54,926 nt of DNA from Gammaproteobacteria bacterium (lineage in GTDB: Bacteria > Pseudomonadota > Gammaproteobacteria > Methylococcales > Methylomonadaceae), in assembly GCA_018830325.1 (NCBI GenBank), contig JAHJSQ010000067.1, forward strand, positions 1 through 54,926. Direction: 5' to 3'. Within the stretch, counting starts at the first letter, position 1, and every line of letters starts with the position of its first letter. The notes beneath the pieces are model-generated. The model worked only from the letters and a program-made list of their open reading frames with translations, did no database searches and had not been told where the DNA came from. Both the position numbers and the translations under genes were made by a program. This document shows positions 1-51,382 of the stretch, in pieces.

Positions 1-126
1 AGTAAAGACAGTGTGGCAGCCACTATCGAAAAGCTGGCGCGTAATGTACGACGGGTATTCGATTACCTACGCATGACAGAGAATTCGAGAAAGGTTATAT
101 TGCGATACCAAAGTCAAGAAGTTTAG
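1..126 (+). CDS. Unrecognised partial reading frame at window edge
   Basis: An open frame enters from the left edge and stops at a TAG at 124-126, giving 41 residues rich in basic and hydrophobic positions (core SVAATIEKLARNVRRVF). I do not recognise it. It directly abuts the group II reverse transcriptase fragment, so it may be host sequence or a degraded part of the same element. The 5' end lies outside the window. Confidence 0.25.
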   Translation, partial: SKDSVAATIEKLARNVRRVFDYLRMTENSRKVILRYQSQEV

Positions 127-477
127 AACGGTTTCGCCGTGGGGAAGAAGCCGGAAGAGTTTACATTTCTCGGTTTTACCCACTACTTCGGGAAGACCAC
201 GCAGGGAGACTTCAAGGTCAAACGACGCACCGCGCGCAAGAAATTCGGCGCGGGCTTGAAGACCTTCGACGAATGGGCGAGCAAGGCGCGACACAAGCAG
301 ACCTTGGGCGAAATGCTACGCTACGACAAGGCGCGGGTGGTAGCCGGCCACCTGAACTATTATGCATCGCGGATAACGCAACCCGGTGCAGCGACTTTGT
401 CTATCGTTCAACACACATTCTGTACAAACGACTCAACCGCAAGAGCCAGTGCAAGGCTTACCACTGTGACCGGTTAA
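127..477 (+). pseudogene. Group II intron reverse transcriptase/maturase, C-terminal fragment
   Basis: The frame carries the hallmark FLGFTHYFGK segment that follows the palm domain of group II intron-encoded proteins, then the basic KVKRRTARKKF stretch and the maturase (thumb/X) region ending near GHLNYYA. Intact proteins of this family have roughly 400-600 residues. Here only about 110 remain, the catalytic YxDD box is absent, and a stop lies just upstream in frame at 124-126. The last 25 or so residues after GHLNYY look frameshifted. Residue NGFAV upstream of GKKPEEF resembles the usual GRFA segment, so decay occurred at the 5' side. It is not functional as it stands. Confidence 0.8.
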
Positions 478-569
478 ACCAGGCTTTAATAGCATTGGCT
501 GGCCGCGTGGACACATCCGAGACCTGAATCCCTGTCGAAGGGCGGAGGCTTGCTGAATGACTGATCAAG

Positions 570-602
570 GAGCCGGATGTGGGAAAGCCGCTTGTCCGGT
601 TC
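570..602 (+). ncRNA. Group II intron domain V (remnant of intron 3' end)
   Basis: The 33-nt sequence begins GAGCCGGA and closes with TCCGGTTC, forming the lower helix with one G-T pair, and has an inner GTGG/CCGC helix capped by a GAAAG loop. This is the shape and approximate length (about 34 nt) of domain V, with the AGC catalytic triad preserved after the first G. It lies about 90 bases after the maturase fragment, as expected. The following GCGGG...CCTGC hairpin at about 611-630 could be domain VI, but I cannot fix the exact intron 3' boundary. Confidence 0.7.
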
Positions 603-760
603 TGAGAGGGGGGCGGGTATCAACCTGCGTCATGGGTGAAATATTGTGGCACCGTCGGGAAACCAGGCGGCAAAAGGAGAAAACCAGCATCACCCTACCG
701 CGCTGGGAGTGCCTGTCCTACTCGAAACCGCGCTTCTTAAAACATGATTATCCTGGAGAA

Positions 761-2374
761 TTACCATAACGACCAATTCCCGGTAGACATAACATAAAAG
801 GCCAGCAACGTATTCGTCGTCATATGAGCAGTTATAGCATCGGAAATAGACTTTCTATGGTACAAGGCCAAAGCGAATCCCATTCCGGCAATTGTACCGG
901 CAAGCCATTCACCGTGCAATGCGCCGAATAAGATCGAAGATCCCAGAAAGGAAAGCCAAGTAAATTTAATCGTCTTCAATTCCGTAAAGTTTATATCGGA
1001 TAGTTTATTGATTAAGTAACCTCGAAAAACGAGCTCTTCGATGATCGGTACTGTAATCGTGGCGCCGATGAAACGAAACAGCAACCAACTGCTAACTAAC
1101 AGCGGAGGCGCCTCGAACAATGAATCCATAAGTTTTTGATTATCTTGTTCAGAGACATCAACCAAGATCAGCCAAATCACAAAAACGCTAAAACCAATTA
1201 ATAGCGAGTGTAGCGTAATATTTTTAAATATCGGACGATATTGCTTACGGAAATACCAAATTACTGAAAGTGAAACGATTACCCTTATGGGATAAAGCCA
1301 ATTAAAATCTACCGTAAAAGCCGAGGTTAATATTATTGATGAAAGTAGAGCGACGAAAGGCAACAATAGCGCTGGTACCGGCGAATGGTTGGATTCGTGG
1401 CTGAATTCAACAGCGTGCGATTCAACAAGGAAATATTTTGATCGTTGGCAGATCGAAACCATCCCCCCACTAATCAAAACAAATGCGATCCAACCGGCAT
1501 TCGAATGAAACCCGCCGGCAGCTATTTCCTCTGAAAAAGAAGATCCAATGGCGATCAGCGCCACAATCCTGAAAACATTCAAAACCCATATTGTGATAAC
1601 CCCAATTGGAAACAGAATATAGACATTCGGAAACAACAGGGTTCTGCGATAAGCAATTATGTACAAAAATAAAAATACGATAATGAGTCCAATGCCTTCG
1701 TATCCCGAGCATTGCGGTGAAATCTGCACCTCAAAACCAGGTGTTCCCAATATTTTATGAACCGGTTGAATAACGACCTCTGGATAAAAAACGCCCAATA
1801 AATAACCTGAAACATTAAAGGTCAACTCGGTAAGGGGCTGCCAGTCTAATTCCGACATTTCTCCAGCAAACCAAGAAAGGACGCCTGTCAAAACAGCGAG
1901 GGAAACCAGAGCTATCTCTTGCGAGATCAATCGCGTCCAACATTTCGCTGGTGCGATGGTAAAAAACAGGCAAACAACCGATCCTATCCCTATTAAAAAC
2001 CAACTTACAGCTACCAAGTTGACCGTAATAGCCTCATGAGAATTTTCGAACTCGACGCCTTGAAATAACGCCGATGTGATATAGATAAAGGACATAATGA
2101 AAATACCATGGGCCGCCAACCATTTCTGCCACCATGGATAATCATTGTAATCAAGTAAAAAATGCGAAATAGCCTGAAACCTTGGCCAGCCAAAAACGGC
2201 AAAACCTCCTGCAACCGCAACGAAAAATCTGATCAATTCACCGGCATAACCGATTAAACCCAAAAACAAGTTATGTGTTTTCTCTAAAGATTGCGAATCG
2301 AAGCTAATTGATAAAACAAGAGCTTCCAGGCATAAAAACACTAGAAAAAAACTGCGGCTGACGACTGATTGCAT
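761..2374 (-). CDS. xrtE: Exosortase E fused to a CPBP (CAAX-like) intramembrane protease
   Basis: This is a 537-residue polytopic membrane protein. The N-terminal half is an exosortase, a cysteine protease-transpeptidase that cleaves C-terminal sorting tails at the inner membrane. The triad is visible as Cys222 (PQCSGYEG), Arg269 (NVFRIVAL) and His290 (GGFHSNAGW). The C-terminal third is a CPBP/Abi-type intramembrane metalloprotease with EELVFR at 446-451, His487 (GALHGEW) and HMTTN at 517-521. This fusion is characteristic of the exosortase E/protease, VPEID-CTERM system, which usually sits beside one dedicated substrate. That is the case here: a 55-residue VPEID-like protein lies immediately upstream on the same strand. 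The ATG at 2374 lacks a strong Shine-Dalgarno. A strong hairpin separates it from the substrate gene, so expression may rely on read-through or a weak internal promoter. Confidence 0.88.
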   Translation of the reverse strand: MQSVVSRSFFLVFLCLEALVLSISFDSQSLEKTHNLFLGLIGYAGELIRFFVAVAGGFAVFGWPRFQAISHFLLDYNDYPWWQKWLAAHGIFIMSFIYITSALFQGVEFENSHEAITVNLVAVSWFLIGIGSVVCLFFTIAPAKCWTRLISQEIALVSLAVLTGVLSWFAGEMSELDWQPLTELTFNVSGYLLGVFYPEVVIQPVHKILGTPGFEVQISPQCSGYEGIGLIIVFLFLYIIAYRRTLLFPNVYILFPIGVITIWVLNVFRIVALIAIGSSFSEEIAAGGFHSNAGWIAFVLISGGMVSICQRSKYFLVESHAVEFSHESNHSPVPALLLPFVALLSSIILTSAFTVDFNWLYPIRVIVSLSVIWYFRKQYRPIFKNITLHSLLIGFSVFVIWLILVDVSEQDNQKLMDSLFEAPPLLVSSWLLFRFIGATITVPIIEELVFRGYLINKLSDINFTELKTIKFTWLSFLGSSILFGALHGEWLAGTIAGMGFALALYHRKSISDAITAHMTTNTLLAFYVMSTGNWSLW

Positions 2375-2451
2375 CGCTTAAAAGGATAGAAAGAAAACCT
2401 GTTTCAAAAGGCGGAAAGTCGAGAAATCAAATTGCCATGACGGCAAATTGA

Positions 2452-2484
2452 AACGGGGCAAGTTTAAAGTACCCTTGCCCCGTT
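2452..2484 (-). terminator. Strong hairpin between VPEID-CTERM gene and xrtE
   Basis: AACGGGGCAAG (2452-2462) pairs perfectly over 11 bp with CTTGCCCCGTT (2474-2484), with an 11-nt loop. On the minus strand it follows the stop of the small substrate gene by a few bases and is succeeded by TTCAATTT, a modest T tract. It could be a terminator or attenuator that gives much more substrate than protease mRNA, or a 3' stabilising hairpin. A second, imperfect inverted repeat (CAAATTGCC/GGCAAATTG, 2428-2450) lies just downstream. Confidence 0.6.
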
Positions 2485-2489
2485 ATTCG

Positions 2490-2657
2490 CTATTTGCGGC
2501 GACGTTCGGAAATAAGAGCAGCGACCGCGGTCGCCAATCCCAATCCTAAAGCTGCGATGCTGGAGTCCATTTCAGGTGCAGCAATAGCAGCAGTTGCGCT
2601 ATTCATTCCGATAAATACGATTGCTGAGCCAAGATATAATTTAGTTGCTGTTTTCAT
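2490..2657 (-). CDS. Small VPEID-CTERM-like sorting-domain protein (exosortase E substrate)
   Basis: This is a 55-residue protein. The ATG at 2657 is preferred over an in-frame start 36 bases upstream because AAGGAG sits 7 bases before it. Residues 1-24 form a signal peptide (MKTATKLYL, hydrophobic core, ATAA). The tripartite sorting tail follows at once: APEMD at 27-31, a small-residue transmembrane helix about 33-49 and a basic end ERRRK. APEMD is a conservative variant of the VPEID box recognised by exosortase E, whose gene lies next door. Almost nothing is left between signal peptide and tail, so the mature product would be only a few residues. Assignment rests on tail architecture plus neighbourhood; no enzymatic domain is present. 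Confidence 0.8.
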   Translation of the reverse strand: MKTATKLYLGSAIVFIGMNSATAAIAAPEMDSSIAALGLGLATAVAALISERRRK

Positions 2658-2703
2658 GACTATACTCCTTACACTATTAAAGGTTTTGTTCACTAGTTTA
2701 AGA

Positions 2704-2740
2704 CTTGTAAAAACGATTTCAGTAAAATCGTATTTACAAG
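2704..2740 (-). promoter_or_regulatory. Long inverted repeat in the leader of the VPEID-CTERM gene
   Basis: CTTGTAAA and ACGATTT on the left arm pair with AAATCGT and TTTACAAG on the right arm around a short central CAGT-like loop, giving about 15 bp of near-perfect stem. It lies 47-83 bases upstream of the substrate start and just downstream of the proposed sigma-54 promoter, so it would form at the 5' end of the transcript. It could stabilise the mRNA, bind a protein as DNA, or terminate something upstream. Confidence 0.5.
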
Positions 2741-2752
2741 CTTAATAGCATC

Positions 2753-2769
2753 CGCAAATTGTAGGCCAA
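2753..2769 (-). promoter_or_regulatory. Candidate sigma-54 (RpoN) promoter of the VPEID-CTERM/xrtE unit
   Basis: On the minus strand the sequence reads TTGGCCTACAATTTGCG: GG at 2767-2766, exactly 10 bases, then GC at 2755-2754, with TTGGC and TTTGC matching the -24 and -12 consensus. Predicted transcription would start near 2742, about 85 bases before the ATG. GG-N10-GC is common by chance, so the flanking match and the repetition upstream of the PEP-CTERM and EPS genes carry the argument. Confidence 0.5.
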
Positions 2770-3058
2770 TATTAATATCCAACTGAATAATAAAGAGTTA
2801 TTTAATAGCCCTCAGTTAATCGATTATGGTATTGTAAAATTTTCTGACATCAAAGATAACTTTCGATAAACCAAATTCCCTTTATACTCGTTGCTACCTA
2901 ATGCCGATATAGAATTGAATTAAGGGGTCAGAGCCTGAGGTATCCCCGTAAAATAGTCATATAAAACAATTTGCTATGGCTAAAAATTGATCGAAAAGTT
3001 GGTTTCTCGGGTCTAATTGCTGAAATTCATAATCTTTCAGCTTCGCCGGGGAGGTCCT
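2770..3058. other. AT-rich intergenic stretch without genes
   Basis: Between the sigma-54-like site and the IS4-like remnant I see only AT-rich sequence. AAGGGGTCAGAGCC-type sequence near 2922-2936 is of the kind often found next to gammaproteobacterial transposase fragments. No convincing gene or RNA is visible. Confidence 0.4.
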
Positions 3059-3460
3059 ATGTTGACCATGAGTTTACTCCATAATCTGATCAAGCGGGCG
3101 CTTCCTAAACTTCATCGAACCCGGCTTAAAACTCTCATGGCGACCGTAGAGGGCGGCTTGAAAAGTATCTCGGTGTCTCTGACGGACTTAGGGCGAGCAC
3201 TTCCCGGGCCGGCCTATCCCAAACACAAAATCAAGCGCATAGACCGTCTCCTCGGCAATCCCAATCTCAAGCTTGAGCGACAGAAGCTCTTCGGGGTCAT
3301 GACACAGTGGTTATTACAGTCATTACCCTTACCTTTGATTCTCATCGACTGGTCACCGCTCACCGCCGATCAAAGTCAACAGTTGTTACGCGCGGCGCTA
3401 CCGACCGGTGGGTGCACTATTACACCTAAATCCTGCAAACAAGCACTGGGAAAATATTAA
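3059..3460 (+). pseudogene. IS4-like transposase, N-terminal fragment
   Basis: The start at 3059 has GGGGAGG five bases upstream. The 133 residues match the N-terminal part of IS4-like transposases: helical SLLHNLIKRALPKLHRTRLKTL, the KIKRIDRLLGNP segment, then LILIDWSPL, where the first catalytic Asp of the DDE triad lies, and LLRAALPTGG. After CTITPKSC the frame departs from the family and stops. The second Asp and catalytic Glu are absent. An intact enzyme would be about 350-400 residues. No terminal inverted repeats were identified. Confidence 0.75.
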
Positions 3461-3527
3461 TAAACCATATAAATCAATGATATGATTATTTTTACAAAGT
3501 AACTCCAGGGTAATTATTCACACCCCC

Positions 3528-3866
3528 TATCGTTCCCACGCAGAGTGCTCGCCGTTATACATAAGTCGTAGATATACCGTCTTGCCATCTTGGCAAATGT
3601 GACCTCGATACCCTTTATTGTTGCTTAACGTAACCGACTTTCCCTCACCTAGCGTTAGGTGAGGGACGACGAAGGCGTCGCTCCCACAAGGGGCTGGATG
3701 CTCTGTGGGAGCGATCCCCAGATCGCGATCTCGGAGCCACTGATATCCAATATCCGCAGATTTATCAAACAGCACCGTTTCCAGTTATACGATGACCTCT
3801 GTTTAGCAAGTTTACCGATATTTGTGTATAACGATGAGCGCAGAGCGTGGGAACGATAATTGCCAG
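3528..3866. repeat. Composite REP-like palindrome cluster
   Basis: The left end, near 3530, reads TATCGTTCCCACGCAGAG and continues GCTCGCCGTTATACATAA. The right end, near 3815-3866, carries the same sequence inverted (TTATACAC...CGTTCCCACGCTCTGCG on the minus strand). The interior holds a second hairpin, TCGCTCCCACAA...CTGTGGGAGCGA (about 3678-3713). The outer arm recurs at 20710 and 47915. Such palindromes are mobilised by RAYT enzymes, and a dead RAYT gene lies 600 bases downstream. Small open frames inside are shadows. Confidence 0.7.
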
Positions 3867-3889
3867 GGGACTGAATAGTTTCACTCCAG

Positions 3890-4345
3890 GTCATGATTTT
3901 AATGAACGAAAACGCCTCACGCCAACCTCAAAAAAAACTGCACGTCGGCCAACCGGAAAAGTTCATCTGTCGGCAACAGCAAGTGGTTTAACCAGTCAGG
4001 CCGGCTTAATTCCGGTAATCAAATTTCTCGAGCGTATCGGTTTTGAAGAACTGGTCAAACAAACCGTTGCGCATGTGCGCGGCGATAATGCTGCTTATCA
4101 ACTGGTGGAAGACATGTTGCTGACTTTGGTCGGCGTGATCGGTGGCGCCCGATCAATCGCCAAGGTGTGCGCGGTGTGGTCGGACGGCGTTTTTGCAAGC
4201 TGGCCGGTTGGTTAAAGATACCGGTTGAGACGACCATCAGCCGATTACTCAAAGAAGTTGATGAGCGCCAGGTCAGCCAATTAAAAAACCCTCAATCATC
4301 GGTTACGCGCACGCATCTGGCGTAAAACGCAACGCGCCGGTATCA
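3890..4345 (+). pseudogene. IS1380-family transposase fragment, frameshifted
   Basis: The first frame contains GLTSQAGLIPVIKFLERIGF, HVRGDN, and LLTLVGVIGGARS...VWSDGV, the N-terminal signature of IS1380-family transposases. Near 4195 the frame shifts: the next frame continues CKLAGWLKIPVETTISRLLK and VDERQVSQ, and a third carries NHRLRARIWRK before a stop at about 4347. Only the N-terminal third of a roughly 430-450 residue protein is left, without the catalytic core. Confidence 0.75.
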
Positions 4346-4469
4346 GCCGGTATTGACCGGAAAATAGAGGCGTGGAATCGCATATCTGAACGATCCTTCT
4401 GTGCTGATTTAATGCCTGTTTCGCCTTCTTTTTTGGGTTTGCAGGATTTAGGTGCTATATAATTTGTTC

Positions 4470-5325
4470 ATGATCGGACTTATTAGAATCGAATTTTCAG
4501 GAGCGTTCTATTATGTGATTTCCCGTGGTGTCCGCCGTGAAAACATTTATGAAGATGATGAAGACAGGGTTCAATTCCTTGATGTTTTGAAGCGTGTTAT
4601 AGAGGACTTTAACTGGGTTTGTCATGCTATTGTTTAATGACCAACCATTATCATTTGGTTATAGAAACGCCTGATGCCAATCTTTCGAAAGGTATGCGGC
4701 AGTTAAATGGTGTTTTTACGCAAACATCAAATCGGCCGACACGGCCGCACCGGCCATTTATTTCAGGGTCGCTACAAGGCGATACTGGTTGATGGCGAAA
4801 GTTACCTTCTAGAGCTGACGCGTTATGTCGTACTCAATCCGGTCCGGCCCGGAATGGTGACATCGCCCGGAGACTTGTTATGGAGCAGTTATCGGGCGAT
4901 GGCCGGTGAAGCACCGGCATCGTCATGGTTGGCGACCGATAGCATGTTGGCTCAGTTTCCAACTCATCGCAACACGGCAACAAAACGTTATAGAGAATTT
5001 GTCACACAAGGGATGAATCAGGAATCTATCTGGCAAGAGCTGAAACGTCAAATATTCCTCGGTGACGACACATTCGTATCGCAGATGCAGGAAAAAATTA
5101 AAGGGAAAAACAACGATGTTAATTTTCCCAAAGCACAAAGACGATCGCCCGCTGCCATTAGCCGAATACCAAAAAACCTCCGCCAGCCGGAACGAGGCGA
5201 TCGTATCGGCCTATGCCGCAGGGGAATATAGCTATCAACAAATAGCGGATTTTTTTGAACTACATTTTACAACCGTCGGTAAAATTATCAGAGCAGCAAG
5301 ATCAAAAAAGAAAGCTATGATTCTA
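4470..5325 (+). pseudogene. REP-associated tyrosine transposase (RAYT), three frameshifts
   Basis: Three frames together reconstruct a RAYT/Y1 transposase. The first, from ATG 4470, gives IRIEFSGAFYYVISRGVRREN, and FNWVCHA up to about 4630. The next gives CLMTNHYHLVIETPDANLSK with the HUH metal site (HYH) and GMRQLNGVFTQ to about 4720. The following frame gives RRHGRTGHLFQGRYK...LLELTRYVVLNPVR. A last shift near 5105-5125 leads to a C-terminal helix-turn-helix (YSYQQIADFFELHFTTVGKI). RAYTs mobilise REP palindromes; three frameshifts make this copy inactive. REP-like elements at 3528, 20710 and 47912 may be its former substrates. Confidence 0.85.
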
Positions 5326-5334
5326 GACTTGACC

Positions 5335-5369
5335 CTATTACCCTTTGACCCTATTACCCAAAATAATTT
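5335..5369 (+). repeat. Short tandem repeat after the RAYT remnant
   Basis: TTGACCCTATTACCC occurs twice back to back, separated by a few bases, just after the last recognisable RAYT codons. It may be a slippage duplication or part of the lost 3' end of the element. Confidence 0.6.
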
Positions 5370-5441
5370 GGCGTTTCTATTCAAGTTCAGAACCACCAAT
5401 TTCAGGGGAATTATCGTGGGAAAAACTGCAGCAATTTTAAC

Positions 5442-5534
5442 GCTAACTTCTAACCAACGGGTCAACTTGACTGTTAAACGCTACGCTCCTATCGTCGCTA
5501 CGCATTTGCCGTCAAGTTATCCTTATCGTTAGCT
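5442..5534 (+). repeat. attC-like site ahead of the SEC-C gene
   Basis: GCTAAC (5442-5447) is matched by GTTAGC (5528-5533), and inside these AACTTGAC (about 5464-5471) is matched by GTCAAGTT (5511-5518). This nested pairing of outer and inner boxes around a weakly paired centre, ending GTTAGCT, is the layout of integron attC sites, and the following gene starts 17 bases later. Left and right spacers are unequal, and there is no integrase or second attC in view, so it could be an ordinary inverted repeat. Confidence 0.35.
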
Positions 5535-5550
5535 TGCACAAGGAATAAAT

Positions 5551-6123
5551 ATGGTAAACATCCCTGCATTTTGTGACACATGCGGTGCATCATTTCCGTC
5601 CGGCTTTGCTTTTGAGAACTGCAGCAACGTTCATTTGTCGGGTAACAAATCTGGGCCATGCCCTAGATGTGGCGGAATGGGTAGTGTTCCGGATGGAGTT
5701 TTTAACATTACTGGAAATGTTATAGAAATATTGTCAGCACCGACTCGAACAATTGAACAACTTACTGTACTATCTAAAATATTAAAAATAGCAGCCAGTA
5801 GCAAAAAATCACCTGAAGAGATTGCTAAGGAAATTGAGGATAAAGTTCCGGATCTTTCGCTTATCGCTAAATACATACCTAAAAATGCGTCGGAGTTAGT
5901 GGCATGGCTGACATTTATACTGCTTGCAATACAGACAATAAACCAGCTTGGTAAGGATGATGTGCCAGACGTTAATGTAATACTTAATCAGTCCGTCGAA
6001 CAGTCAATGAGGCCTGAGAATTATTATCCCTTCGTTATTCCTCAGGCTCCTATTTCTAGAAACGCCCCATGCCCTTGTGGCAGCGGGCAAAGGTACAAAC
6101 ATTGTTGTGGTAAAGCAATCTAA
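5551..6123 (+). CDS. Hypothetical protein with zinc-ribbon-like N-terminus and C-terminal SEC-C motif
   Basis: This is a 190-residue protein starting at ATG 5551 after AAGGAATAAAT. The N-terminus has CDTCGASF and CPRCGGMG, four cysteines spaced like a zinc ribbon. The middle is helical with one hydrophobic stretch (LVAWLTFILLAIQTI, about 117-131). The C-terminus, PCPCGSGQRYKHCCGK, is a SEC-C zinc motif, known from SecA tails and many uncharacterised proteins, where it can bind ribosomes or nucleic acid. No catalytic domain is visible. It sits alone after transposon debris and an attC-like site, which suggests a transferred cassette. Function is unknown. Confidence 0.75.
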   Translation: MVNIPAFCDTCGASFPSGFAFENCSNVHLSGNKSGPCPRCGGMGSVPDGVFNITGNVIEILSAPTRTIEQLTVLSKILKIAASSKKSPEEIAKEIEDKVPDLSLIAKYIPKNASELVAWLTFILLAIQTINQLGKDDVPDVNVILNQSVEQSMRPENYYPFVIPQAPISRNAPCPCGSGQRYKHCCGKAI

Positions 6124-6210
6124 GATCAACGGGGTCATAAATCAACGTAAATCCAAGCGCGCCAAGATTTTTCGCGAAAGCTGAAATGGGATCCGTCCGA
6201 TTTCAGCAGC

Positions 6211-6330
6211 TCGTAGGATGCGGTGAACGAAGTGAACCGCATCGTTCGCGATCGGTGCTGCTCATGCCTGAAAGCAACCTCCGGCCCCTTTAGCATTTGC
6301 CCCGGATTACGCAAGCTCCATCCGGGCTAC
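6211..6330. repeat. Two short palindromic intergenic repeats
   Basis: GATGCGGT (6217-6224) pairs with ACCGCATC (6236-6243), a widespread intergenic palindrome type in Proteobacteria. CCCGGAT (6301-6307) pairs with ATCCGGG (6320-6326). A degenerate copy of the second element lies at 7250-7280. They occupy the gap before the CopD-like gene, which explains why the upstream in-frame extension of that gene is not coding. Confidence 0.6.
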
Positions 6331-6387
6331 TCGCTACGGCGGGGTGTTCTCGGTCGTGCTGGAATTAAAACTTATGGGTCGAAAATC

Positions 6388-6831
6388 ATGTACGGGATAC
6401 TGTTGTTGCTGCATCTGTTGAGCGCCACCGTTTGGACGGGAGGGCATATTGTCTTGGCGGTTGTCGTTTTACCGAGAGTTTTAGAGGAGCGCTCTCCGGA
6501 ATTACTGCTGGCCTTCGAGTCCGTTTATGAAAAAATCGGTATGCCGGCGCTGATCGTGCAAGTTTTAACCGGGCTTTTACTGGCCTATCGCTTGGTTCCG
6601 GATATAGGCGGATGGTTCACGATGGCGAATCCGGTTTCTCATCCTATCGCGGCAAAACTGATCCTTCTTGCGTTGACGGCGGGTTTTGCCGTCAACGCCA
6701 GGTTTCGCGTTATCCCTGCATTGTCAAAAGACAACCTCGAGGTCATGGCAGGGCATATCGTTGCGGTCACGGTTTTGTCTGTTTTGTTCGTGATCGTCGG
6801 CGTTTCGTTCCGGACCGGATGGCTGTATTAA
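6388..6831 (+). CDS. CopD-like integral membrane protein
   Basis: This is a 147-residue protein with four predicted membrane helices (about 2-24, 48-68, 83-103 and 120-142). The start at ATG 6388 is chosen because the helix begins at [16 protein letters not shown] and upstream sequence is repeat DNA. The [14 protein letters not shown] opening, with its His-Trp-Gly-His pattern, and the second-helix Leu-rich segment resemble the CopD/copper-resistance membrane family. The role, in copper import or as a haem-associated membrane protein, is uncertain. The DUF488 gene starts 7 bases after its stop, so the two are probably cotranscribed. Confidence 0.65.
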
Positions 6832-6838
6832 TCAGGTC

Positions 6839-7207
6839 ATGAATATTTCAATCAAGCGGGTATACGATCAGCCGGATGCAGAAGACGGAATGAGGATTTT
6901 GGTTGACCGGCTCTGGCCACGAAGCTTGCCGAAAGAGGAGGCGAAGATCGATTTGTGGCTGAAGTCGGTGGCGCCTTCAAATGAACTGAGAAAATGGTAC
7001 GGACACGATCCCGAAAAGTGGGTGGAGTTCAAACAGCGGTATTTCTCTGAGTTGGCTTCGAATCCGGATGCGGTCACGGAATTGATCGGGCATGCGAAAA
7101 GCGGCAGGGTGACCTTTTTGTATTCATCGAAAGAGGCAAAATACAACAATGCAGTGGCTTTAAAAGACTATATAGACGCCATGATCGAACAATTTCGCTG
7201 CCATTAG
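6839..7207 (+). CDS. DUF488 family protein (YeaO-like)
   Basis: This is a 122-residue protein. The sequence carries the family signature: IKRVYD at the start, [17 protein letters not shown] at 18-34 and [12 protein letters not shown] around 51-62, then [12 protein letters not shown] near the end. The length fits a complete member. DUF488 proteins have no established biochemical role; some are linked to DNA or nucleotide processes, but the sequence alone does not decide this. It follows the CopD-like gene by 7 bases. Confidence 0.85.
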
Positions 7208-7249
7208 CCCGAAACACAGCGGAATCCGAGATAATCCGAGTTTAATTCA

Positions 7250-7280
7250 CCCCGGATTCAGCAAGCAGCATTCGGGTTAC
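7250..7280. repeat. Degenerate copy of CCCGGAT palindrome
   Basis: CCCCGGATTCAGCAAGCAGC and the following ATTCGGGTTAC correspond to the element at 6300-6330 with a few mismatches. It lies between convergent genes and may act as a weak bidirectional terminator. Confidence 0.5.
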
Positions 7281-7307
7281 TTGCTGAACCGGCCGGCGGT
7301 ATTTTAC

Positions 7308-7616
7308 TTACGAAAAAATAGATTTCACGGCAGAAGTCAAATTGTCCCAGCCTTTTTCTAATTTCGCGGAAACCTCGTCCCATCCTTCTTCCAACGAGTC
7401 TTTGACGTCATCCCATTTGTCGTCGGCGGTTTCGGCGATTTCAAGGGCTTTCGCTTTGGCCTGCTCGAGTTTGGGTTCTAAGTCGTCGATTGCTTCGCGG
7501 ATGTCATCAAGTGTTTCTTGCGATTCTTCCTTGGCTTTGTTTTTCAATTCGGTCAATTTGGCTTGTTGTTCGTCGATCGTGGATTGGATTTTATTCAATA
7601 GTTCATCTTTAGTCAT
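7308..7616 (-). CDS. Small acidic coiled-coil protein
   Basis: This is a 102-residue protein starting at ATG 7616 with GGAG about 9 bases upstream. It is almost entirely helical and charged (KLTELKNKAKEES, DLEPKLEQAKAKALEIAE), with a heptad-like pattern and a C-terminus containing two W-D-rich repeats (KWDDVKDSLEEGWDEVSAKL). It has no signal peptide and no membrane helix. It resembles stress-related, apolipoprotein-like coiled-coil proteins of unknown function. It is the last of three minus-strand genes (LysM protein, YidB-like, this one), 58 bases after the YidB-like stop, and probably shares their role. Confidence 0.6.
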   Translation of the reverse strand: MTKDELLNKIQSTIDEQQAKLTELKNKAKEESQETLDDIREAIDDLEPKLEQAKAKALEIAETADDKWDDVKDSLEEGWDEVSAKLEKGWDNLTSAVKSIFS

Positions 7617-7674
7617 TGCCGTTGCTCCAAAGAATAGGATTAATGATTTGAGTCGTTTCGAACAATCCGAAACG

Positions 7675-8148
7675 TCAGGGTTTTCGGCCGAACATTTTTC
7701 CGAATGCATCGATGGCGCCGGAGACGCCGCCGGCGCTATTCAACAACTGCTCTCCAAGATCGGCAAGCGTGCCGTTTGGAGAAGCCTTGTCGATGACGTT
7801 GGGTACTGCTTCCTGCAGTCCGTTCAACGCCGTAGATTCGCTGATGCCCAGTTGTTTGGCGAATGCGGCGATTTTGTCGTGGCCGAATATTTGTTCCAAC
7901 TGGTTTCCGGAAACCGGTGCGTTCTGGCCTTTGCCTAGCCAGGAAGACGCAAGCTGCATTAATTCCTGACTGTTGCCGTTCTGCATACTTGAAATAATCG
8001 AAGCCATGTTCAGTTGGCCTTGAGTGTTACCGAACAATTTGGCCAGCGCTCCGACGATTTCGGAGGTTTCTACTTCTCCGTCACGATCCGTGTCCAATTG
8101 CTTCTTGAATATTTGTGCACTGCTTTGAAGTAGGGAATTGATGTCCAT
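7675..8148 (-). CDS. YidB/DUF937 family protein with an EF-hand-like loop
   Basis: This is a 157-residue protein. ATG 8148 is preferred to a TTG at 8169 that would overlap the upstream stop. The C-terminal 100 residues match the YidB/DUF937 family (LGKGQNAPVSGNQLEQIFG, then FAKQLGISESTALNGL, VPNVIDKASPNGTL). Near the N-terminus, DTDRDGEVETSE at about 19-30 fits a Ca-binding EF-hand loop, which is not part of the usual YidB core. YidB-like proteins are often near LysM/Kbp-type genes, as here. Biochemical function is unknown; a Ca-responsive envelope or stress role is inference. Confidence 0.75.
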   Translation of the reverse strand: MDINSLLQSSAQIFKKQLDTDRDGEVETSEIVGALAKLFGNTQGQLNMASIISSMQNGNSQELMQLASSWLGKGQNAPVSGNQLEQIFGHDKIAAFAKQLGISESTALNGLQEAVPNVIDKASPNGTLADLGEQLLNSAGGVSGAIDAFGKMFGRKP

Positions 8149-8165
8149 GATGGCGCCGCCTCTGG

Positions 8166-8609
8166 TCAAAGGTTTTTGGGAATTCGGATTTTCTGGCCGG
8201 GATAAATTTTATCCGGATCTTTGATGACTTCTCGGTTGGCCTCGAATATTTTTTGATATTTCGAGCCGTTGTCGTAGGCTTTCTCGGCGATTTTCCAAAG
8301 CGTATCGCCTTTTTCGATCGTGTAAAACTGATCGTCTCCGGCGACCGTGCTGCCATCCGCGATCGTCACCCCTGCGGCATCGATGGCTTCGATGCCTTGC
8401 ACATTCCCAGCGATCAACACGGCTTTTTCCAATGCTTCGGCTGAGCTTGCCTTACCGCTCAGAATCGCGCGCCCGTCTTCGACTTGAACTTGCAGGTTTT
8501 CGACGCCAGGATTGTCTTCTTCGATCAGTTTTTGTATCGCGGCAGGCGCCTCGGTTTCGGAGCCGAACAGTTTTTTGCCCATATTCATTGCAAAATTGAA
8601 TAAGCCCAT
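8166..8609 (-). CDS. kbp: BON-LysM protein, Kbp (YgaU)-like
   Basis: This is a 147-residue protein with MGLFNF at the start as in Escherichia coli Kbp, a BON domain at about 28-85 (VENLQVQVEDGRAILSGKA) and a C-terminal LysM domain at 95-145 (YTIEKGDTLWKIAEKAY, YPGQKIRIP). Length and domain order match Kbp, a potassium-binding protein that lacks a signal peptide despite the LysM domain. It heads a three-gene minus-strand group with the YidB-like and coiled-coil genes, separated by only 17 bases from the first. A cytoplasmic ion-sensing or envelope-stress function is likely from the family but is not shown here. Confidence 0.85.
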   Translation of the reverse strand: MGLFNFAMNMGKKLFGSETEAPAAIQKLIEEDNPGVENLQVQVEDGRAILSGKASSAEALEKAVLIAGNVQGIEAIDAAGVTIADGSTVAGDDQFYTIEKGDTLWKIAEKAYDNGSKYQKIFEANREVIKDPDKIYPGQKIRIPKNL

Positions 8610-8828
8610 GATTTAGCCTCTTTTTTGTTATGGAAATGTGGTTTGCTTACGGAACATACCCCTGAACTTGCCAGTGGTCAACTGATTTCGGGCGTACAAA
8701 AAAATCAAGGCAGACTTTGCATTTAACATTTGGACCTTGTTGATCTAACCGACCAAGGAAAATTACTTGTGGTATCGCATGACGACAGAGGAGATACAAT
8801 TCTAATCATAACGCCAAGATTAGCCACG

Positions 8829-9275
8829 CTAGCGGGTTTGTCCGCTACTCTGTTTGGCGCTTGTTGCAAGATAATCGCCGGAAGTAATACAAATGAGACC
8901 CTCGATCGGGCGGTTATAGAGATAAACCCAAGCGTTCAGTATTTGGTCTTGACCAAACATGACCGGTTCTATGGACCTCGCATATTCGTGGGGTCGAGAG
9001 TCGCCGATGGAGCACTGCTCGTAGCGGTCGAGTGTGGTTAAGATCATTTTCGGATGATCGGTTCGGTAGATATCGCCTAGCACTCGGTCACTGGCTTTGT
9101 TGGATTTTACGACCCCCGGATATTTCCCAAGATTAAATAATTTTCCCTGAAAATATCCAGGGCCAATCCAGTCGGCGCGTTGATTTAGCCAACGCGACAT
9201 GGGGTGTCCGTGATTTTTTCTCAAGGTTCCGTACACGAATAGATAGTGTGTTTGGCGTTTTTTAAGTAGTTTCAC
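8829..9275 (-). CDS. Gamma-glutamylcyclotransferase-like (AIG2/GGCT fold) protein
   Basis: This is a 148-residue protein. FVYGTLRKNHGHP at about 13-25 is the substrate-binding YGSL-type loop of the gamma-glutamylcyclotransferase fold. VLGDIYRT and LDRYEQ follow at the expected spacing, the latter supplying the catalytic Glu region, and EYARSIEPV and AWVYLYN complete the fold. Members act on gamma-glutamyl amines or peptides. Substrate cannot be told. The gene stands alone, with about 220 bases of featureless sequence before the kbp-like gene. The C-terminal 20 residues are atypical. Confidence 0.75.
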   Translation of the reverse strand: MKLLKKRQTHYLFVYGTLRKNHGHPMSRWLNQRADWIGPGYFQGKLFNLGKYPGVVKSNKASDRVLGDIYRTDHPKMILTTLDRYEQCSIGDSRPHEYARSIEPVMFGQDQILNAWVYLYNRPIEGLICITSGDYLATSAKQSSGQTR

Positions 9276-24374: not shown

Positions 24375-25508
24375 TTGAGTAAACCCGCATTACTGGTATT
24401 GGAGGATGGATCGGTTTTTAATGGCGTATCCATCGGAGTAGACGGTTGTTCCGTTGGAGAAGTCGTCTTTAACACTTCATTGACTGGATATCAGGAAATA
24501 TTGAGTGATCCATCTTACGCGCGTCAAATCGTAACGTTGACATATCCGCATATCGGCAATGTAGGTACCAATGCCGAGGACGACGAGTCACCGAGCGTTT
24601 TTGCCAGCGGTTTGGTTATTCGAAATTTACCCTTGCAGGCAAGTAATTGGCGGTGTGAGAAAACTTTGCAGGAATATTTGATCGACCGGAATGTGGTCGC
24701 GATTGCCGAGATCGATACGCGTAAACTGACTCGCTTATTACGCGATAAAGGTGCTCAACGCGGTGCAGTTGTTGCCGGCGATAACCCCGATATTGAGATT
24801 GCCAAGAAAGCGATAGCCGATTTTCCCGGCCTTAAAGGCATGGATTTAGCCAAAATCGTGACTGTCGAGAAGTCTTATGAATGGACGGAGGACGTTTGGG
24901 ATCTCGACAAGGGCCATCAAACAGCCGCTAATTTGACTAAGCATGTCGTCGCTTTTGATTTCGGTATTAAGCGCAATATCCTGAGGATGCTTGCCAATCG
25001 CGGATGCCGAGTAACCGTCGTTTCAGCGCAGACGCCTGCTGAGAAGGTATTGGCAATGAATCCGGATGGCGTGTTTTTGTCGAATGGCCCGGGCGATCCG
25101 GAGCCATGCGATTATGCGATCGAAGCGATAAAAACGATTCTCGATACCAAAGTTCCTGTTTTCGGTATTTGTCTAGGCCATCAATTATTGGCCTTAGCCA
25201 GCGGCGCAAAAACCGAGAAAATGAAATTCGGGCATCATGGCGCGAATCATCCTGTTCAGGAGCTTGCGACCGGACGGGTTATGATTAGTAGTCAAAATCA
25301 CGGATTTGCGGTCAACGAAGCGAGTTTGCCAACGCATTTAAAAGCGACTTTTCGTTCGCTTTTCGATGGCAGTCTGCAAGGAATAGAGCGAACCGATTGT
25401 CCGGCTTTCGGCTTTCAAGGGCATCCCGAGGCGAGTCCCGGTCCACAGGATGTCGAAAGTCTATTCGACCGTTTCGTCGAGATGATGGAACGCCCCCAAA
25501 CGCACTAA
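24375..25508 (+). CDS. carA: Carbamoyl-phosphate synthase, small (glutaminase) subunit
   Basis: This is a 377-residue protein, start TTG 24375 with GAGGT nine bases before. The N-terminal CarA domain ([31 protein letters not shown]) is followed by a class I glutamine amidotransferase domain: SNGPGDPEP, nucleophile Cys in [12 protein letters not shown], and [11 protein letters not shown] with the His-Glu pair. It passes ammonia to CarB to make carbamoyl phosphate for pyrimidines and, via argF, arginine. Unusually, about 490 bases of repeats separate it from carB. Confidence 0.96.
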
Positions 25509-25588
25509 GGATTTCGTGATCAATAACGTCCTGGATTTATGAGCTTTGTTGAGGGTTCGGTCACTCGCTTGACGGGACGCTGTGAACT

Positions 25589-25649
25589 CAGCACCTAAAT
25601 GATCCAAGATGGTTGACCATAGCCATTGGGCTATGGAATTTAGGTGCTG
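25589..25649. repeat. 61-bp palindromic repeat, copy A
   Basis: CAGCACCTAAAT (25589-25600) pairs with ATTTAGGTGCTG (25638-25649), and CCATAG (25617-25622) with CTATGG (25631-25636). The 16 bases between outer and inner left arms (roughly GATCCAAGATGGTTGA) are unpaired and conserved among copies. It is preceded by GGACGCTGTGAA, also seen before copy C. Confidence 0.85.
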
Positions 25650-25803
25650 GGTGAATGCAGATTTTGCATTACGCCATGGATGGCGTGTATTAGGGCAATG
25701 CAGGGCAGAAAAATGCTCCTGCATTTTCTGCATTCATTACATCCATGTAACTCAGCAATTGCCGAGGAGCAAAAATCTGCAAACGCCATGGATGGCGTGA
25801 ACC

Positions 25804-25864
25804 CAGCACCTAAATTATCCAGGATAGTTAACCATAGACAATGAATTATGGAATTTAGGTGCTG
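25804..25864. repeat. 61-bp palindromic repeat, copy B
   Basis: It has the same length and arms as copy A. The inner stem CCATAG pairs with TTATGG, a G-T pair replacing G-C, so pairing is kept despite base change. The unpaired left segment reads TATCCAGGATAGTTAA. Confidence 0.85.
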
Positions 25865-25999
25865 GGTGAATGCAGATTTTGCAGGAGCAAAAATCTGCCC
25901 TGCCGCCGACACCTGCCAATCGAGCAACCAAACCCTCCAAAATAGGGAAGTTATTTTCGACCAAATCCTAAACCGCCACCGAGAAAGAACAGTATAAAA

Positions 26000-48790: not shown

Positions 48791-51382
48791 ATGAATAAAG
48801 TCTTTAGCATCAGCGACTCTGAAATAGATTTTGTAAAGTCATTCGCTTCAAAACTATGGATGCTTGCCATTCTCATTCTTTTTATGATGCCATTATCTTC
48901 AGCATCTGCCTGCGATGCCCCGGTAGGGCGTTTCTGTGTCGATTTTTACAATGGCAAGAATTTTAATACCAAGCCATTGGTTACGCGAAAAGCCCCTTTT
49001 ATTAAATATAACTGGAAGAATCGGAGCCCAGCGCGTCGCGTGCCGCATGATAATTTTTCTGCTCGTTGGCGAGGCCAATTCGACTTTAAGGAAGGTCCAT
49101 ACGAATTTCGTGCCATTGCCGATGATGGTGTTCGAATTTTTATTGACGGTAAGCTGATTCTTGATCATTGGCAAGACGCAGCAGGAACAGAATATCGTGC
49201 CGTGGTTAATCAAATTGCCGGTAGGCATCTAATTGAAGTTGAATATTTTGAAGCGACTGGCAGCGCTCGCCTTGAGGTAGCCTGGAAAAAGGTGGAGGCA
49301 GTATCGACAAAATCTCCCCTTGTAGTTGCGCCTAAAGAAACAGCCTTAGCTGAAGCTGACAACGTTGCCCCAACAATTCCAATAGCAATATCTTCGGCAG
49401 GCAATACCTCATCGCCGGATATTGCAACAGCACAAATAATTACAACGCAGCCAGCCAGTACGATAGAGCCAACCTCAAATGAAACTTCATCGTCAAACAC
49501 AACAGCGGAAACTATTTCTGTAAAGACTGCGTTGGCGAAAGGTAAGACCCATAAGAATCTTGAAAACAACCCGCTGTCAAAGCGTATTGGCAACAAAGCG
49601 CCAATCGGTGTAAACCTTTCAAATTTTAGCTACTACAGTTCGACCGTTCCGTTTAAAGACTTGATGATGCAAAACGGGGGGCTCAACGTGCTAAAACAAG
49701 GAACTAACGACCCTTGCCCGGAACAACCTACATTAAGTCAAGACGGTTATCCGAGTTCATTGCCAAATGGATGCGTCATTAGGATATGGAGTGTTTTTCA
49801 TATTCCTAAAGATGATTTCTGGCCAACCGGTACCCCACCTTATCAGCCAGGACGCTATATACTGCTTTATCAAGGTCATGGAAAAATAAAGCTTGGCTGG
49901 GATGCTAAAAATGTCGTTTATAAAAACGGTGGGCGCATCGAATTTGATGTACTAAAGCCTAAAGACGGAATTCAAATCCTAATAACAGCGATGGAATGGA
50001 ATGATCCCATCAGGGATATGCATATCGTACATAGTAATGATGAAGCAACATTTAGAGAACAGCCCTTTAATGAAAAATGGTTGGCGTTACTAGAGCCCTT
50101 TCAAGTGCTTCGCTTTATGGATTGGGGTGCGGTCAGTCTAAATAGATCAGTTTACTATGCACCTGCCACCGCTCATACAACGCAGAGTATTACTTTGCCG
50201 GAATCGGCGCCCGCTCAGGATAATGTGTACGCCAATATGGTGGCTTTGCTTAATATCAATGGCAAATGGCCGCGTGTTCTGATCGATAGATACGATGGTG
50301 CAACCCGTACTTTATTTCTGAAATCACCGATAGAAACGTCAATCAGCGGAAAACAGCCAACGGTCAATATTTATGATTTTCTAAATAGGACTTGGGCGGA
50401 TCGCGCTCCACCGACTACGTTAGGACAAGGTTCAGCTAAGGGCGTGGCCTTCGAATACATGATCAAGTTGGCAAACACCCTGGATGTCGATCCCTGGCTT
50501 ACTATTCCCACTGCTGCTGACGATAAGTTTGTTGAAGAATTGGCTCTGTTGTTAAAAAAATTCCTCAAGCCAACATTGAAGTGCTACATCGAATATTCCA
50601 ATGAAACCTGGAACTTTGGCTTCCCTGGTTATAACTATTCCGAAGCCAAAGCACGTGAACTCAATTTAAGTGGTGCGGCTGTATTTGCAGATGCCTGGCA
50701 CGCTTATCGTGCTGTAGAGATATTCAAAATATTTAATCGTGTATTCGGCGATGCCGATCTTCACGAAGCGCGGCAGCAAAGTCGACTCGTGCGAGTACTA
50801 ACTTCACAAACGGCATGGTTAGATCGCGCTAAAAGTGTCATGGATTGGGAAATGCCGAACAATGGCATGCCTACCCAAGGTAACCCTGCTTACAAGTTTG
50901 CCGATGCCTGGGCGGTAACGACCTATTTTTACCTGGACAAAGACAAATCATTGGAAACCACCCTAAGCCGAGAAGAATTGTTAGCAGCACAGATCGACAA
51001 CATCAATAGCTTATTTGGCGATAAGAAAAACCCTGGCCTAATCAGAAACATACTCGCGGAATCCAAAGCCAGGGGATTACAACTGGTGGCTTACGAAGGT
51101 GGAACACACTTATTGGCGCCGCAGAATAATGGTGAATTGATCGCAAAAGTGGCTCAAATAAATAAAGACCCTCGGATGAAAGATGTATATAGCGTGATGC
51201 TGAATCATTGGAACAAGCTCTATCAAGAGTTCGGTGCCGATTCAGTAGGTGTGTTAAATCATTACTCAGATATCAGCCGATATGGCAAATATGGTTATTG
51301 GGGCTTGTTGCAATCTACTTATCAGGATCCTGCGACTGCCCCAAGATATCAAGCGATTAAAGGCTATGTTTCAGCACCTTAA
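48791..51382 (+). CDS. Secreted PA14-domain protein with clan A glycosidase-like C-terminal half
   Basis: This is an 863-residue protein. N-terminal membrane/signal helix at about 21-40, with Ala-Cys (SASAC) after it. PA14 domain at about 48-168 (FSARWRGQFDFKEGPYEFRA, DDGVRIFIDGKLILDHW). A Thr/Ser/Pro-rich linker at 170-260. From about 265 an all-beta then alpha/beta part with KCYIEYSNETWNFGFPGYNY, giving an Asn-Glu pair at 604-605, and LVAYEGGTHLL with Glu769. An NE pair and a later strand-end Glu are the arrangement of GH clan A acid/base and nucleophile. A role in trimming or binding the EPS is likely. I cannot assign a GH family. Confidence 0.65.
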   Translation: MNKVFSISDSEIDFVKSFASKLWMLAILILFMMPLSSASACDAPVGRFCVDFYNGKNFNTKPLVTRKAPFIKYNWKNRSPARRVPHDNFSARWRGQFDFKEGPYEFRAIADDGVRIFIDGKLILDHWQDAAGTEYRAVVNQIAGRHLIEVEYFEATGSARLEVAWKKVEAVSTKSPLVVAPKETALAEADNVAPTIPIAISSAGNTSSPDIATAQIITTQPASTIEPTSNETSSSNTTAETISVKTALAKGKTHKNLENNPLSKRIGNKAPIGVNLSNFSYYSSTVPFKDLMMQNGGLNVLKQGTNDPCPEQPTLSQDGYPSSLPNGCVIRIWSVFHIPKDDFWPTGTPPYQPGRYILLYQGHGKIKLGWDAKNVVYKNGGRIEFDVLKPKDGIQILITAMEWNDPIRDMHIVHSNDEATFREQPFNEKWLALLEPFQVLRFMDWGAVSLNRSVYYAPATAHTTQSITLPESAPAQDNVYANMVALLNINGKWPRVLIDRYDGATRTLFLKSPIETSISGKQPTVNIYDFLNRTWADRAPPTTLGQGSAKGVAFEYMIKLANTLDVDPWLTIPTAADDKFVEELALLLKKFLKPTLKCYIEYSNETWNFGFPGYNYSEAKARELNLSGAAVFADAWHAYRAVEIFKIFNRVFGDADLHEARQQSRLVRVLTSQTAWLDRAKSVMDWEMPNNGMPTQGNPAYKFADAWAVTTYFYLDKDKSLETTLSREELLAAQIDNINSLFGDKKNPGLIRNILAESKARGLQLVAYEGGTHLLAPQNNGELIAKVAQINKDPRMKDVYSVMLNHWNKLYQEFGADSVGVLNHYSDISRYGKYGYWGLLQSTYQDPATAPRYQAIKGYVSAP

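Follow-up and report, generated by a model that had tools for sequence, protein, structure and literature searches.

Sorting enzymes are described as anchors of surface proteins, yet a methane-oxidizing bacterium of the family Methylomonadaceae has kept an exosortase E (XrtE) with a single recognizable substrate that offers it nothing to sort. What, then, would such an enzyme make? The pair lies in the 54,926-nucleotide stretch analyzed here (the window), where a minus-strand frame encodes a 55-residue protein, MKTATKLYLGSAIVFIGMNSATAAIAAPEMDSSIAALGLGLATAVAALISERRRK, laid out as a predicted signal peptide, an APEMD box, a hydrophobic helix, and ERRRK (Table 1). The first-pass annotation had described this protein as almost nothing but a signal peptide and a sorting tail, and the translation bears this description out. 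Signal peptide sites in the protein and its relatives were predicted by a home-made rule; the 55-residue protein has two AxA sites, one ending at residue 23 and one at residue 26, and cleavage at the first or the second would leave 3 residues or none in front of the box. The annotated signal peptide (residues 1 to 24) was thus correct in kind, although its end falls at residue 23 or 26. Since the earliest in-frame start is a GTG at 2693 (67 aa), and since the stop-to-stop frame spans only 83 codons, with just 28 extra codons upstream that hold no cargo, we ruled out a cargo hidden upstream of the gene, including the longer start that the annotation had raised against its own reading. The predicted substrate is without cargo.

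Table 1. Features of the exosortase E locus, in window coordinates
Feature	Position	Strand	Basis
xrtE: exosortase E fused to CPBP (Rce1-like) protease, 537 aa	761..2374	-	TIGR04162, Pfam, alignment, structure model
Perfect 11-bp stem-loop between substrate and enzyme genes	2452..2484	-	folding z-score, repeat search
Predicted cargo-free exosortase E substrate gene, 55 residues	2490..2657	-	translation, tail-profile matches, homolog alignments
ERRRK end, residues 51-55	2493..2507	-	translation, tail alignment
Hydrophobic helix of the tail, ~residues 34-49	2511..2558	-	sequence, tail alignments
APEMD box, residues 27-31	2565..2579	-	translation, tail alignment
Predicted signal peptide, residues 1-23, or 1-26 if cut at the second AxA site	2589..2657	-	home-made rule, AxA count
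Shine-Dalgarno-like AAGGAG, 7 nt ahead of ATG	2665..2670	-	read from sequence
16-nt inverted repeat (94%), ~45 nt upstream of substrate ATG	2704..2740	.	repeat search

When the tail profile was built leaving out the window's own row, the two rows of its genus, or the four short rows of the methanotroph type, the 55-residue frame scored 40.2, 38.6, and 34.5 bits, respectively, compared with 7.2, 7.5, and 6.0 bits for the runner-up frame of the window. The best frames in ten shuffled windows reached 4.9 to 8.6 bits (no-genus profile only). These scores, together with the counts of upstream tail frames relative to shuffles given below, led us to reject the idea that the gene is a chance open frame. 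The tail was originally called a variant of the VPEID signal, a reading supported by the alignment of its three parts with the tail of a protein that passes TIGR04161, the VPEID-CTERM model (56.3 bits). TIGR04161 itself gave no match to the 55-residue protein at E ≤ 1 (curated cutoff, 33 bits), and its best score anywhere in the genome was 11.4 bits, outside this gene. The model also fell below its cutoff for 8 of 10 relatives tested: the two that passed are 93 and 77 aa long, and the top score among the five of 51 to 59 aa was 22.1 bits. On these ten cases, the family model mostly misses the class.

The nearest counterparts share the layout of the window protein and end in ERRRK. The homolog from G475, a genome of the same genus, has 54 residues and is identical in 30 of 56 columns, with A(I/V)AAPEMD kept between the two proteins and the signal peptides diverging more; that from G525 has 59 residues and is identical in 28 of 59 columns. 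Across 19 aligned proteins, the invariant columns were P28, E29, and L41, all within the tail.

On the same strand, 115 nt beyond the substrate gene, lies xrtE. Its product scored 227.9 bits against TIGR04162, above the curated cutoff of 150. Pfam found an Exosortase_EpsH and an Rce1-like domain, the latter in agreement with the CPBP domain that the annotation had assigned to the neighboring enzyme, and the fusion of the two halves was present throughout 59 aligned XrtE homologs. C222, R269, H290, E446, E447, H487, H517, and N521 were invariant in this alignment, and we take the Cys-Arg-His set (C222, R269, and H290) to be the exosortase catalytic residues. EE and H-N motifs are catalytic in CPBP-family proteases, according to the accessible part of PMC11980579. 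Candidate catalytic residues are present and invariant in both halves of the aligned enzymes. The predicted structure is confident (mean pLDDT, 90.4). Because Foldseek matched this model to no solved structure at E ≤ 0.001 (the top hit had an E of 0.70), and a search by sequence gave none either, the domain names rest on profiles.

The two genes are also paired across the family. Of 151 family genomes, 17 gave an XrtE match (E ≤ 1e-20), and in 16 the match exceeded the curated cutoff; the other match, in G496, is a fragment at the end of a contig. Tail-profile matches (E ≤ 0.01) occurred in exactly the same 17 genomes and in 0 of the 134 others, a co-occurrence that places the tail proteins with VPEID-CTERM and whose positive side is partly built in, because 6 of the 17 genomes, and none of the negative ones, contributed profile rows. 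In every family genome examined, tail and XrtE are found together or not at all, and the comparison shows the pair to be genuine; this co-occurrence and the adjacency of the genes uphold the suggestion that the 55-residue protein is the partner of XrtE. Single tail proteins, of 54 to 59 residues, were found in the window's genome, G475, and G525. Several of the 17 genomes have more than one, such as G496 with four matches. G529, with eight tail matches (L062 and other stretches) that are mostly long proteins of 216 to 359 aa, is the opposite extreme to the window.

Within the genus, XrtE is present in two of six genomes, and no genome other than these two, each with a single match, had a tail match with an E value better than 0.4. 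The window's genome, which is rated 100% complete, encodes two further exosortases, one of a type present in all five genus genomes searched, and has ten PEP-CTERM matches. We consider it disfavored that the mini-protein is a substrate of another resident exosortase, as three of these five genomes lack XrtE and show no tail match better than E 0.4. All 39 PEP-CTERM matches in five genus genomes and G525 lie in open frames of 128 to 367 aa, whereas the XrtE-substrate frames measured in the same way span 83 (window's genome), 57 (G475), and 62 (G525) aa. Since the coresident PEP-CTERM frames are all this long, the lack of cargo is peculiar to the XrtE substrate here. The only recognizable XrtE substrate in this genome is the predicted minimal precursor.

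The design extends beyond the family. We compared 92 XrtE fusion loci, comprising the window, 20 stretches (two with truncated enzymes), and 71 of 80 further loci, nine of the 80 having been dropped as the same contigs, judged by length; the sample is uneven, because the 80 are the best of 281 relatives. A same-strand tail frame lay within 1.5 kb upstream of xrtE in 61 of the 92 loci, compared with 2 antisense and 0.7 expected from shuffles, and was absent from 31; at least 300 nt of upstream sequence was present for 86. The fetched stretches of these loci held 100 tail proteins with a signal peptide pick, of which 40, in 26 loci, were 50 to 59 aa long and the remainder 61 to 359 aa. A PEP-type box (VPEP or TPEP) marks some of the long proteins, which may belong to other exosortases. 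Of the 40 short proteins, 36 had an AxA site no more than 14 residues ahead of the box, compared with 20.1 in shuffles, an excess that fits cleavage by signal peptidase.

Among the 26 loci with short proteins (mini loci) are many from Acidobacteriota, two from Planctomycetales, one from Cellvibrionales, the Marinicaulis group, G108, and the window's clade. Placed on a quickly built XrtE tree (90 rows), the 26 require 12 changes, compared with 22.8 for shuffled labels, and at least 10 by well-supported branches. Among the loci compared, the closest XrtE to that of the window is from G525 (49%), with that of G475, from the same genus, behind it (45%). Where longer relatives occupy the same position, they carry 15 to 100 residues of low-complexity cargo. 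The annotation had asked whether full-length VPEID proteins stand beside xrtE in place of the short frame: this is true of some relatives, but the cargo-free frame is kept in G475 and G525 and recurs in other phyla. Tail matches were found in all 22 mini-locus genomes searched, many of them distant from xrtE. G562 has eight, four within ~700 nt. Taken together, the predicted cargo-free XrtE substrates are a class that is widespread across several phyla and in some cases arranged in tandem arrays. In G562, which also holds L131, positions 1640 to 2343 of L238 encode four tandem mini substrates of 51 to 57 aa, with no xrtE in the fetched stretch.

If the few residues between signal peptide and box were the product, their sequence might matter, and the evidence on this point is divided. 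Tandem Marinicaulis paralogs share their signal peptide and tail around unrelated cores (SIPTHE, GQAVK, and GDLWVD). A second cluster in this assembly has GQAVK again, unchanged, and SIPMHE in place of SIPTHE; the GQAVK copies differ synonymously at 10 of 30 tail codons. These recurring cores argue for selection on a putative 5- to 6-residue core, with gene conversion of the flanks as an alternative. In other groups, the cores resemble loose spacers: two close Planctomycetales have identical signal peptides (20/20) and nearly identical tails (28/30) with different cores (GGPNP versus GGGLEA), and Acidobacteriota cores are short and mostly Ala, Gly, Val, and Thr.

The arrangement of the genes bears on the relative amounts of the two products. 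The 68-nt stretch holding the intergenic stem-loop (positions 2425 to 2492) has a folding z-score of -5.73. An equally strong stem-loop lies between the genes in G525 (z, -5.78), the G475 intergenic region forms a stem with a run of T after it (z, -2.64), and z is below -2 in 27 of 46 intergenic stretches of at least 30 nt, relative to simple shuffles. Such predicted stem-loops fit a precursor made in excess of its enzyme. No known RNA element was found in positions 1 to 9000 at gathering scores, and the single promoter-like site in positions 600 to 3100 is below the shuffle mean of 5.8. The inverted repeat upstream of the substrate gene could be an operator, an RNA hairpin, or chance.

Polysaccharide export genes lie beside xrtE in nine other family genomes. 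In the window, an exopolysaccharide locus is found ~40 kb from xrtE on the same contig (positions 40140 to 54363, plus strand). It encodes a sugar transferase, a Wza-like export protein, a beta-barrel protein, a Wzz-like protein, a WecG-type glycosyltransferase, and a flippase, and its export and barrel proteins are homologs of those adjoining xrtE in other family members. An 863-aa PA14-domain protein is also encoded within this locus (positions 48791 to 51382, plus strand). In 8 of the 92 loci, four of them from one close group, a fatty acid hydroxylase (PF04116) gene lies no more than 1.4 kb from xrtE, which hints at a lipid acceptor. These loci (L074, L089, L111, L135, L138, L139, L142, and L144) represent five lineages, and the closest of the genes are 22 to 26 nt downstream. 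Clustering of 700 neighbor frames yielded no signaling or receptor neighbor common across lineages; one sensor-kinase-like group occurred in five loci at scattered distances.

The reading that we favor, tentatively and with somewhat less than even confidence, is that a dedicated XrtE system processes a minimal precursor into a micro-peptide of ~3 to 8 residues conjugated to an envelope acceptor; we infer both cleavages and the product. The 55-residue precursor would be exported by Sec and cleaved by signal peptidase I after residue 23 (or 26), and the exosortase half of XrtE would then cleave at the APEMD box and join the new C terminus to a lipid or polysaccharide, leaving the peptide borne on an envelope molecule. 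We suggest an acceptor because exosortases and archaeosortases are thought to join cleaved targets to one (PMC11980579, accessible part) and because of the polysaccharide export genes near xrtE in nine other family loci, with homologs ~40 kb away on this contig, and the PF04116 genes. Judging from its domain content, the CPBP half of the fusion may finish the processing of the cleaved tail or remove it, and the intergenic stem-loop could let the precursor outnumber the enzyme. Against the micro-peptide product stand the longer substrates of many relatives (up to 359 aa), the 31 of 92 loci lacking an upstream same-strand tail frame, the spacer-like cores, the home-made rule behind the signal peptide sites, and the lack of a solved fold match at E ≤ 0.001. 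That XrtE systems of this sort make ribosomal micro-peptides, with the signal peptide and tail as leader and follower of an excised core of ~3 to 8 residues that is conjugated at its C terminus to a lipid or glycan, and with distinct cores in tandem paralogs, strikes us as doubtful; if true, one sorting enzyme would display or secrete a small set of distinct peptides.

Several other explanations have to be weighed against the conjugated micro-peptide. The mini-protein could stay uncleaved as a two-helix membrane protein, its signal anchor and tail helix making it a subunit, activator, or chaperone of XrtE, and the adjoining genes would suit this, as would the conservation of two hydrophobic segments and the box alone (P28, E29, and L41 in 19 proteins). 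We nevertheless judge it unlikely, given the AxA excess before the box (36/40 versus 20.1), the cargo of 15 to 100 low-complexity residues in longer relatives at the same place, and the additional copies in tandem or at remote sites (as many as eight, in G562), which suit substrates better than a subunit. The tail, present in every member and its best-conserved part, might itself be active, the CPBP half releasing or trimming the hydrophobic APEMD-to-ERRRK piece as a membrane signal. The persistence of the fusion throughout the 59 aligned homologs agrees with such a role, which is quite unlikely all the same, since recognition by the enzyme alone predicts that the tail is conserved and since longer substrates share the tail, where by analogy it is the sorting signal.

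It is very unlikely, in our view, that XrtE simply decorates a lipid or polysaccharide with a short peptide stub, a handle whose residues are irrelevant: the paralog-specific cores kept in Marinicaulis count against this, whereas the loose cores of Acidobacteriota and Planctomycetales, the polysaccharide export genes that adjoin xrtE in nine other members of the family (and lie ~40 kb from it in the window), and the PF04116 genes in 8 of 92 loci would accommodate it. Highly improbable is an eroded substrate that has lost its cargo and been kept by chance. Other family members do have longer substrates, and the fragmentary frames around the gene look by eye like mobile-element debris, none of it named by Pfam, but the same design, its start, ribosome site, and tail intact, adjoins XrtE proteins only 45 to 50% identical to that of the window (G475 and G525), and it turns up repeatedly on the XrtE tree (at least 10 changes) and in tandem arrays.

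The enzyme family is already known and named, and the predicted cargo-free substrate is a variant within it. As in the described TIGR04162/TIGR04161 system, the enzyme exceeds its cutoff and adjoins a substrate with a signal peptide, a PE box, a helix, and a basic end; the differences are the missing cargo, the APEMD box, and the lack of a TIGR04161 match at E ≤ 1. RiPP-like precursors consist of leader, core, and follower, and by analogy only, conserved ends flank a short variable core in some relatives here; in contrast to RiPP-like logic, the leader is a Sec signal peptide, and no modification enzyme besides XrtE was seen. Rhombosortase with its single GlyGly-CTERM target and MrtJ with its single JDVT-CTERM protein likewise pair one enzyme with one adjoining target gene, but they belong to other protease families, and the accessible parts of their descriptions do not mention cargo-free targets (PMC3237569, PMC11980579). 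Myxosortase MrtX is a CPBP-family intramembrane protease that cuts a tripartite tail, and the second half of XrtE belongs to the same wider family; MYXO-CTERM, however, needs an invariant Cys (PMC11980579, accessible part), and Cys is absent from all 55 residues here. The PEP-CTERM/EpsH (XrtA-type) system shares the tripartite tail with a PE motif, the signal peptide, and the link to exopolysaccharide genes (PMC1569441, accessible part), and differs in the long frames of its substrates in the six genomes of this group.

A literature search by title and start of abstract found no report of cargo-free exosortase substrates; since it left out most subscription journals, curators may already know them. 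The relatives in several phyla suggest a sorting enzyme for tiny peptides rather than for surface proteins. What exosortases attach to their targets is left open in the accessible part of PMC11980579, and a 55-residue substrate with two predicted cleavages and one enzyme would be a very simple test object for the chemistry of attachment.

A blastn comparison of 19 kb between the window and G475 revealed no common neighborhood; the matches were dispersed repeats and, inside xrtE, a single stretch of 47 nt. The repeats at 3553 to 3853 and 25506 to 25971 are 80 to 98% identical to several places in L058, the G475 stretch. Short overlapping frames at 1 to 560, 3017 to 3460, 3847 to 4325, and 4452 to 5231 resemble mobile-element remains by eye; Pfam named none of them. 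XrtE also matched 16 plasmid records, none over 80% of the query. Four Rhodobacterales plasmids that were fetched (L204 to L207) carry an annotated xrtE; no upstream VPEID protein was seen on one of them, and on the other three such proteins are labeled hypothetical (75 and 71 aa) or lack annotation.
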